Source of the DNA: Actinomycetota bacterium
Lineage (GTDB): Bacteria; Actinomycetota; Acidimicrobiia; Acidimicrobiales; Ilumatobacteraceae
Length of the DNA stretch: 64,000 bases
Reading direction: 5' to 3'
NCBI GenBank assembly: GCA_016870865.1
Contig: VGAC01000004.1
Location: forward strand, 62,001-126,000
The notes below the pieces were generated by a model. The model was not told where the DNA came from and did no database searches. It saw only the letters and a list, made by a program, of their open reading frames with translations. The stretch's first letter is position 1, and every line of letters starts with the position of its first letter. The position numbers and the translations under genes are program-made. Below are positions 5,252 to 7,379 of this stretch, one piece after another.

Positions 5252-5806
5252 ATGATCACGACGCTCGCCGCCGCACTGTGTCTGGCGGCGCCGGCCGTTT
5301 TCCCCGTCGGTGGTCGCGTAACCGACTGGTTCCGGCCGCCTGCCTGCGCGCGATGCGAGGGCAACCGCGGATTGGAGATCGCCACCGCGCGCGGAGCTCA
5401 GGTGGCGGCTCCGGTGGCGGGCACCGTCGAATTCGTCGGACCCGTGGGTGGCCTTTTCTATGTGGTGGTGGCCGCGGCGGCCGAGCCGTCGCTCAAAGCC
5501 GTCGTCGGGGGAGTGGCGGGCGTCAGCGTTTCTCGTGGTGACCATGTCGAGGCGGGTCGCGTGATTGGCGTGGCGATGGATGCGCTGTACGTGGGTTTTC
5601 GCATCGGCCCGCGCCGCGACAATCGCTACCTCGACCCGGCCCCACTGTTCGGCCTGCAGCGAAAACGGGCGCGGTTGGTGGCTCCCGCGCCCACCCCCGT
5701 TAGTCTTGGTCGCCGGTCGGGTCTGTGGACCCGGCTCAACAACCATCCAAGTCATTGCTCGGTTCTCCCACCTGTGGTCGCTTCGGCGCGGGGGCCGGGC
5801 CCCTAA
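5252..5806 (+). CDS. M23-like (LytM) domain protein with zinc ligands lost
   Basis: Secreted LytM-fold protein of 184 residues. A short hydrophobic start ([16 protein letters not shown]) acts as a signal peptide or anchor. The fold runs from about residue 20 to 130: [11 protein letters not shown], then [26 protein letters not shown], then [16 protein letters not shown] and LYVGFRIG. Active M23 peptidases carry His-x-x-x-Asp in the second block and His-x-His in the last. Here these read N-R-G-L-E and L-Y-V-G, so no zinc site is visible and the protein is probably a non-catalytic regulator or binding module. Codons after about residue 150 look unlike the family and overlap a structured rpsB leader. 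The gene follows whiG by 12 bases. Confidence 0.75.
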
Positions 5807-5826
5807 CCACAGGAGAGGAGAACACC
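5718..5826 (+). promoter_or_regulatory. structured leader of rpsB with a three-way junction
   Basis: By-eye folding gives a 6-bp hairpin CGGGTC-TGTG-GACCCG at 5718-5733. After it comes a closed three-way junction: outer stem CCTGTGGT 5771-5778 with ACCACAGG 5806-5813, an inner CGC-TTCG-GCG hairpin at 5779-5788, and an inner GGGG-CCGGG-CCCC hairpin at 5791-5803. The outer stem ends on the first bases of the purine-rich ribosome binding stretch AGGAGAGGAG (5811-5820), six bases before the rpsB ATG. A possible -10 (TAGTCT, 5701-5706) lies just upstream, inside the M23 gene. Ribosomal protein S2 is known to autoregulate rpsB in E. coli through the leader. A similar role here is inference. Confidence 0.5.
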
Positions 5827-6582
5827 ATGGCCGTCGTCACCATGCGACAAATGCTCGAGGCTGGCTGTCATTTCGGACACCAGACCCGCCGTTGGAACCC
5901 CAAGATGCGTCGTTTCATCTTCGGAGAGCGCAACGGCATCTACATCATCGACCTCGAACAGACGATGGACCGCATCGAAAACGCCTACGTGTTCGTGCGC
6001 GACCTCGTCGCCAACGGCGGCTCGGTTCTCTTCGTCGGAACGAAAAAGCAGGCGCAGGACCCGATCCGCGACCACGCCAACCGCTGCGGAATGCCGTACG
6101 TGAACGAGCGTTGGCTGGGCGGCATGCTCACCAACTACGAGACAATCTCCAAGCGCGTCGGCAAAATGCAGGAATACGAACGCATGATTGCATCGGGTGA
6201 GTTCGAGGCGATGCCAAAGAAGGAAGCACTTCTCCTCGGCCGCGAACTCGCCAAGCTGCAGAAGAACCTCTCGGGTATCAGCGCGATGACGCGTCGCCCC
6301 GACGCGGTGTTCGTGCTCGACACGATGAAAGAACACATCGCCGTCACCGAGGCGAACAAACTCGGCATTCCCGTCGTCGCTGTCGTCGACACCAACGTCG
6401 ACCCCGATGTCATCGCGTTCCCGATCCCGGGCAACGATGATGCGATACGTGCCAACGACCTCATGACCCACGTCATTGCCGAGGCCGTTCTCGAAGGCCG
6501 CCTCATGGCGTCGAAAAAGGCCGCCGCCGAGGCACCGAAACCCATCCCCGCACCCCCCACCGCGGCAGCAACAGGAGCCTGA
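5827..6582 (+). CDS. rpsB: 30S ribosomal protein S2
   Basis: Ribosomal protein S2 of 251 residues, bound at the head-body junction of the 30S subunit and needed for S1 binding and initiation. The start ATG 5827 follows AGGAG at 5816-5820 with six bases between; an upstream in-frame ATG at 5725 lacks homology. The family signatures are present: [16 protein letters not shown] near the N terminus, [25 protein letters not shown] and the C-terminal [12 protein letters not shown] with IPGNDDAIR. The last 25 residues are an alanine/proline-rich tail. tsf follows after eight bases, the standard rpsB-tsf pair, so S2 and EF-Ts are probably made from one transcript. Confidence 0.98.
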
Positions 6583-6590
6583 ACCGAAAA

Positions 6591-7379
6591 ATGTCGTTCA
6601 CCGCACAAGACGTCAAGGCCCTGCGCGACTCCACCGGCGCAGGAATGATGGACTGCAAGAAGGCTCTCGAGGCCAACAACGGCAGCATCGAAGATGCCAA
6701 GCAGTGGCTGCGCGAAAAAGGTCTCGCTGCCAGTGCCAAACGTGACGATCGCGAGAACACCCAGGGAGTCGTCGCCCTCGTCGTCAAGGGAAACGTCGGT
6801 GCGATCGCAAAATTGAAATGTGAAACCGACTTCGTCGCCGGGTCCGACGCGTTCAAGGCCGAGGCCGAGACGCTCGCCAACCTCGTCGCCGACAGGGGTG
6901 TCGATGCCGTCGCCGAACGTGCCGCGCAGCTCGACGACTTGAAGATCACCCTGAAGGAGAAGATCGAGCTCGGCGAGGTCGTGCGAATCGAAGCTGCGGC
7001 CGGCAACATCATCGACTCGTACCTGCACGTTCAGGGCGGACGTGGCGTGAACGGCGTGCTGGTCGAAATGTCGGGTGCATCGGTCGAGCTGGCTCACGAT
7101 GTCGCGGTTCACATTGGCTTCGCGCGGCCCCGCTACCTCGCCCGTGAAGACGTCCCGGCCGACGTGCTCGACAAAGAGCGTGCGACGCTGGAAGTCATCA
7201 CACGCAACGAGGGTAAACCCGAGGCGGCGATCCCAAAGATCGTCGAGGGTCGCATCGGGGGCTTCTACAAGGATGTTTGTCTGCTCGAACAGCCCTACGC
7301 GAAGGACGACAAGCAGTCGGTCACCCAGTTCATCGGCCGTGCCAAGATTGCGTCGTACGCGCAAGTGGAGATTGGCTGA
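6591..7379 (+). CDS. tsf: translation elongation factor Ts
   Basis: EF-Ts is the guanine nucleotide exchange factor for EF-Tu. The protein has 262 residues. The N-terminal UBA-like domain reads [22 protein letters not shown], the strongest family signature. The core dimerisation region carries the conserved [13 protein letters not shown] motif, whose TDFV contacts EF-Tu. The length is at the short end of the bacterial range, consistent with actinobacterial forms. It lies eight bases after rpsB, and pyrH starts seven bases after its stop, giving the widespread rpsB-tsf-pyrH-frr order. No separate promoter is evident. Identity is secure. Confidence 0.98.

Follow-up and report, generated by a model that had tools for sequence, protein, structure and literature searches.

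A compact pseudoknotted leader before rpsB in Acidimicrobiales, a diverged variant of the rpsB motif and a probable site of uS2 autoregulation

The rpsB gene of this acidimicrobial lineage is preceded by a short RNA element with two crossing helices, which we read, at a rough probability of 0.8, as a uS2 (rpsB) autoregulatory leader and as a diverged, compact version of the rpsB motif known from the literature. The window, i.e. the whole stretch of 64,000 nucleotides that was analysed, carries in succession a sigma factor gene, an M23 gene, rpsB and tsf; all coordinates given below for genes and leader features are on the + strand. rpsB (5827-6582; Pfam PF00318, 4.1e-97) encodes ribosomal protein uS2 of 251 amino acids and is followed as next gene by tsf, for elongation factor Ts (6591-7379; PF00889, 3.3e-43), while the frame of the upstream M23-family protein (5252-5806; PF01551, 6.1e-9 over residues 38-108) enters the leader. 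The element would represent a widespread regulatory RNA, with no Rfam match in the order-level loci tried, that precedes an essential ribosomal operon in bacteria for which metagenomes are the main source of knowledge.

Read from its 5' side, the structured part of the leader consists of arm a (5757-5767), the 5' strand of helix P_a and the equivalent of P1 in the published motif; arm b (CCUGUGGU, 5771-5778); the small hairpin P3 (CGC-UUCG-GCG, 5779-5788); arm a' (GGGGGCCGGGC, 5790-5800), which completes P_a; and arm b' (ACCACAGG, 5806-5813), which completes the pseudoknot helix. The Shine-Dalgarno region (GGAGAGGAG, 5812-5820) has its first two bases inside b', and 13 nt separate the end of b' from the rpsB start codon in the window. 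As P_a and b/b' cross, the fold is an H-type pseudoknot with an inserted hairpin. A sequence-only reading of the same DNA had instead proposed a three-way junction, packed into 43 bases, of an 8-bp closing stem (5771-5778/5806-5813), a CGC-TTCG-GCG hairpin (5779-5788) and a GGGG-CCGGG-CCCC hairpin (5790-5804), ending on the rpsB ribosome-binding site. The three elements do occupy those 43 bases, the closing stem and the first hairpin are conserved and covary in relatives, and the structure does end on the ribosome-binding site, with b' abutting the Shine-Dalgarno region. The third hairpin, though present in the sequence, is not conserved: its 5' arm, which is included in a', pairs instead with 5757-5767, upstream of the 43-base core, and covariation favours the pseudoknot over the junction.

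The nested local fold of the window (-24.9 kcal/mol, z -1.9, 9 of 200 shuffles as good) is only mildly above chance and that of a 123-nt stretch gave z -1.3 (24 of 200 shuffles); a single fold being so mildly unusual, the question had to be decided by comparison with relatives. A sequence-blind pseudoknot finder returned a, b, P3, a' and b' at exactly the positions given above with a score of 55, a value reached by one of 2000 dinucleotide shuffles. In the window P_a comprises 11 pairs, 4 of them G-U, and its duplex energy is -18.7 against -10.3 for the local GGGG..CCCC hairpin; this long-range pairing persists in the congeners L004 (-18.3), L005 (-19.7), L007 (-12.6) and L006 (-18.7). Further upstream, a 5' hairpin (CGGGUC-UGUG-GACCCG, 5718-5733) may form near the presumed 5' end of the transcript, and hairpins of this zone in relatives show a small excess over shuffled sequence (16.5 vs 14.6, with 43 of 63 exceeding their own shuffled mean).

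The comparison drew on 100 related genomes from the window's own genus, family and order; rpsB was found in 98 of them, and 90 loci were analysed. A framework GGTC[GA]..AACC enclosing the P3 hairpin, most commonly CGC-loop-GCG, stands before rpsB in 86 of the 90; the pattern fails in L069, L076, L089 and L092, of which L076 carries the motif in variant form and the other three were not recovered by the blind finder. Since the GGU of arm b belongs to this search pattern, its invariance is a selection effect. Between P3 and AACC, the bases are complementary in most relatives to a segment that precedes the closing stem, for instance CACGTTCCC with GGGAACGTG in L023 and CACGATTCG with CGAATCGTG in L083. 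The 86 loci with the motif were reduced to 84 with enough upstream sequence, to 63 by removal of near-duplicates, to 60 by dropping three mis-anchored rows and to 58 by dropping two more. A covariance analysis of rpsB upstream regions, the check that the sequence-only reading had named, found that both crossing helices covary across the 60 non-redundant leaders: in permutation tests P_a scored 22.4 against 15.1 (sd 0.41, highest 16.9, z 18, 0 of 20,000 permutations as good), and the outer pairs of b/b' 11.2 against 8.15 (z 11, 0 of 20,000). Single leaders can be weak, with an a/a' score below 16 in 6 of 63.

Alignments give the same picture. Alignment A1, made with MAFFT from 44 of the 63 leaders (those with a short P3 only) and not structure-fitted, shows covariation of 0.268 against 0.139 when shuffled, with all five measures at 0 of 500 and a value above all six slides, its register having been picked on the same alignment. 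A model-aligned set of 74 distinct sequences gives 0.393 against 0.147 (four measures at 0 of 500, one at 11 of 500), and its higher score is what model fitting would lead one to expect. P3 consists of standard pairs in 99.2% of cells in A1 and in 100% in the model-aligned set, and two of its three pairs undergo two-sided changes, in one sequence each and in three each, respectively. A point against the helix P_a is that, in fixed register, just 59% of its cells in A1 and 73% in the model-aligned set are standard pairs. A wider alignment of 16 Actinobacteriota leaders was too gappy and was left out of the evidence. Of 15 order-level loci first tried with the blind finder, L060 (5 of 20 shuffles), L092, L069 and L089 were not clearly above shuffles, and there was no clear win over 20 shuffles for many loci outside the order. 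At the level of sequence comparison, the pairing of both helices is established by covariation.

The two helices presumably form at once in the same molecule. By a crude rule, the linker is long enough for full P_a together with full b/b' in 45 of 58 non-redundant leaders and too short in 13, so that these would either have frayed outer pairs in P_a or alternate between the two helices; the correlation with linker length is partly built in, as a longer helix consumes linker. It is a tentative and rather unlikely thought that the uS2 leader has been rebuilt in this class, with a pseudoknot strand that borders the Shine-Dalgarno region, and that the operator known from E. coli has thereby become a direct switch with P_a and b/b' as its two states. 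A bistable switch as a general account, in which P_a and b/b' are mutually exclusive, P3 is common to both states and uS2 or another ligand chooses between an open Shine-Dalgarno region (P_a formed) and a crowded one (b/b' formed), seems unlikely. Such a switch would agree with the covariation of both helices, with nested folding, which predicts now b/b' and now P_a depending on the species, and with the 13 leaders whose linker is too short for b' once P_a is full; the 45 leaders with a sufficient linker speak against it, fraying of outer P_a pairs would probably rescue the rest, and the published motif is described as a pseudoknot in the rpsB section of PMC2704228.

Under the preferred reading of a pseudoknotted uS2 leader, transcription would begin just downstream of the -10 element at 5701-5706, and the RNA would fold into P_a (5757-5767/5790-5800), P3 and the b/b' helix (5771-5778/5806-5813) that crosses P_a. 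uS2 in excess of free 30S subunits would then bind and stabilise the knot and, because b' ends at the Shine-Dalgarno region so close to the AUG, the stabilised knot would bar the 30S subunit from rpsB by a steric or competitive block; with coupling lost, tsf expression would be lowered too. Without uS2, the ribosome would compete with b' and translation would follow. The likely role of uS2 as ligand and repressor is drawn from its E. coli counterpart, whose leader is stated to respond to uS2 in vivo in the relevant passages of PMC10931766 and PMC2704228, and from the conserved place of the element before rpsB. The earlier suggestion of a structured, probably autoregulatory rpsB leader can be upheld. 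The repression step itself cannot be copied from E. coli, where the ribosome-binding site lies outside the operator and the mechanism is called unclear in the pertinent part of a 2024 review (PMC10931766): operator and ribosome site are apart there and touch here. As the compact form sets the pseudoknot against the ribosome site, self-blocking of translation by uS2 would be testable in a 70-nt RNA. A ligand other than uS2, be it EF-Ts, the 30S subunit, a small molecule or temperature, is improbable; tsf is indeed the next gene, but in E. coli it is uS2 to which a leader with this topology responds in vivo, and the element here lies directly before rpsB. Transcription attenuation was considered and rejected, as a scan of 5500-5900 found no terminator-like site on the + strand and one on the - strand. 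There is very little to be said for a three-way junction acting on the ribosome-binding site, perhaps with an anti-Shine-Dalgarno helix (5762-5768/5817-5823), which is the nested minimum-energy fold of the window and whose local hairpin is as strong in L006 (-10.3), but which the permutation tests largely refute; the hairpin is weaker in the congeners L004 (-4.0), L005 (-5.5) and L007 (-2.8), local hairpins between P3 and AACC in relatives are not stronger than shuffled ones (8.6 vs 9.4), and the anti-Shine-Dalgarno helix, rejected as a candidate, shows no covariation (12.65 vs 12.76, z -0.4, 13,190 of 20,000 permutations as good).

The published rpsB motif, as set out in the rpsB section of PMC2704228 (Meyer et al. 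2009), comprises a helix P1, a P2 that is optional, a hairpin P3 and a pseudoknot in which the strand preceding P3 pairs with the 3' extension. Its range is given as Alphaproteobacteria, Gammaproteobacteria, Cyanobacteria and some Firmicutes, and that section makes no mention of Actinobacteria. The element described here likewise lies directly upstream of rpsB and, by covariation, has a P1 capped by P3 and the same pairing of the pre-P3 strand with the 3' extension, and P2 may be missing from the published motif too. In E. coli the parts follow, by our own assignment, as CACGUAUC..GAUACGUG for P1, GGGGU, GCCC-UUUG-GGGU and, after P1, ACCCC; judged from the order and pairing of these parts, the topology is that of the rpsB motif and of the E. 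coli leader (t44). The differences from the motif as that section describes it lie in the dimensions and in the sequence. P1 is here one compact helix with a median of 10 pairs, and contiguous pairs in the pseudoknot number 7 at the median, against 3-5 in the rpsB motif. The GGAGG-type element that follows P1 of the rpsB motif is lost in the window. Further, b' abuts the Shine-Dalgarno region, with a median of 15 nt to the start codon (range 10-21 in 58 non-redundant leaders, approximate because the rpsB start was taken from protein alignment) against 24 nt, by counting, in E. coli.

Two sequence signatures, CACxCG on the 5' side of P1 and GYGGAGG before AACC, are absent from the window; both are our own patterns, as they occur in E. 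coli and many Actinobacteriota outside the order, and not the consensus of the paper. CACxCG occurs in 18 of 90 order-level loci, 0 of 12 further ones and 30 of 48 loci outside the order, and GYGGAGG in 8 of 90 (the near-identical congeners L007-L014), 0 of 12 and 21 of 48, respectively. The Rfam model RF00127 (t44), searched at E up to 1, matched neither the window nor the nine order-level loci tried nor the window's own genome, so that its gathering cut-off of 44 bits is not reached. At a low threshold, Rfam was run on these nine loci and on 20 of the 48 outside the order; among the 20, t44 matched rpsB upstream regions of other-class Actinobacteriota below the gathering score, at best in L187 (37.1 bits, E 3.5e-5), then in L205 (E 0.019) and weakly in L202 (0.34) and L186 (1.8). 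Conversely, our own model of the element, R1, did not match the leader of E. coli (E up to 1). The link to the published motif therefore rests on topology and on intermediates, and because the two signatures are missing and the RF00127 cut-off is failed, the element is called a diverged, compact variant of the rpsB motif and not a member of RF00127. Such bridging forms across Actinobacteriota show how the fold of a ribosomal leader can be preserved as the sequence drifts past the reach of the Rfam model. Among the papers listed, titles and the opening lines of abstracts revealed no earlier report of an S2 leader in Actinobacteria, though one may exist, and an S2 leader is missing from Table 1 (section 5) of PMC7247131. 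The rpsO leader of mycobacteria, according to the relevant part of PMC8470358, carries a pseudoknot needed for autogenous control by uS15; it resembles the present element in that an actinobacterial mRNA for a ribosomal protein has a pseudoknot immediately before its ribosome site, and differs in gene and protein, and no homology is claimed.

A held-out covariance model, derived from 41 relatives with both the window's genus and the genus closest to it left out, scores 41.8 bits at 5746-5815, the next match in the window being at 15.6, and the window's own genome contains one match, at rpsB. Model search on 81 of the 90 loci matched 75, the exceptions being L026, L063, L069, L076, L089 and L092. 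Under strict filters, by which weak matches are lost, a single match at E 0.001 or better was obtained in each of 71 genomes out of 148 from the order, and wherever the place of rpsB is known among these (26 genomes) the match lies directly before it. A search of 396 genomes of the phylum yielded 20 matches, 18 of them in the order and all 18 directly before rpsB; the matches in G105 and G180 were rejected as leaders, being on contigs other than that of rpsB. A second batch of 60 loci comprised 25 from other orders of the class, 23 from other classes and 12 from the same order. Model R1 matches 11 of the 12 further order-level upstream regions at E 0.0031 or better and, in other orders of the class, L153, L151 and L149 at E 4e-5 to 3e-4; noise sets in at E 0.05, the value of a wrong-strand match in L188. 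Furthermore, a scan of 84,980 species genomes with an exact pattern found 35 places, of which 32 end 13-19 nt before rpsB, two are at the end of the stored DNA and in one (L137) the stored DNA includes no rpsB. The taxa named for these records include Acidimicrobiaceae, Ilumatobacteraceae, Acidimicrobiales, Acidimicrobiia and others. One of the 35-place scan's exact leaders, in a contig labelled Acidobacteria (L125:7123-7164, JAGWXX010000012.1), lies 13 nt before an rpsB with 81% identity to that of the window; this genome is probably a mislabelled member of Acidimicrobiia. An order-level genome (G369) has two rpsB-like genes, of which the C3 copy (L190) has a leader match and the C5 copy (L191) has none. 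L018 (1403-1450) has a second, partial copy of CCTGCGGTCG, some 40 nt upstream of the one that belongs to the leader.

Of 87 order-level loci, 82 carry the loose pattern TA[A/C/G]NNT between -165 and -95 relative to rpsB. Two stretches lying further upstream yielded it in 8 of 85 and 5 of 85, and letter-shuffled copies of the zone itself in 25%; in the window it corresponds to TAGTCT (5701-5706), the -10-like hexamer of the putative rpsB promoter. A sigma-70 consensus scan found no promoter here. The conserved -10-like element suggests that rpsB probably has its own transcript, which would start at about 5712-5714 and carry a leader of about 113-115 nt. Read-through transcripts, for their part, would bring ribosomes across the leader. 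The M23 stop codon (TAA, 5804-5806) lies inside the structure, as the sequence-only reading had noted, and its last base is the first A of b' (5806). In all 9 genus members compared, including the window, the M23 frame enters the leader and ends at the leader's UAA. Outside the genus, in L016, L020, L021 and L023, it ends 112-180 nt before rpsB and the leader is kept, off-frame; L028 has no M23 match. Given these four relatives without overlap, the M23 overlap looks incidental, a genus-level accident, and protein-level constraint behind the conserved M23 tail was rejected. The RNA-level constraint that had been proposed in its place is supported, the leader being kept where the M23 frame stops earlier. 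Residues 150-184 of the M23 protein had been taken as arbitrary, and this is true of 150-167, which vary; the likeness of residues 168-184 within the genus comes from their being translated leader, so that the last M23 residues in this genus would be the translation of a regulatory RNA.
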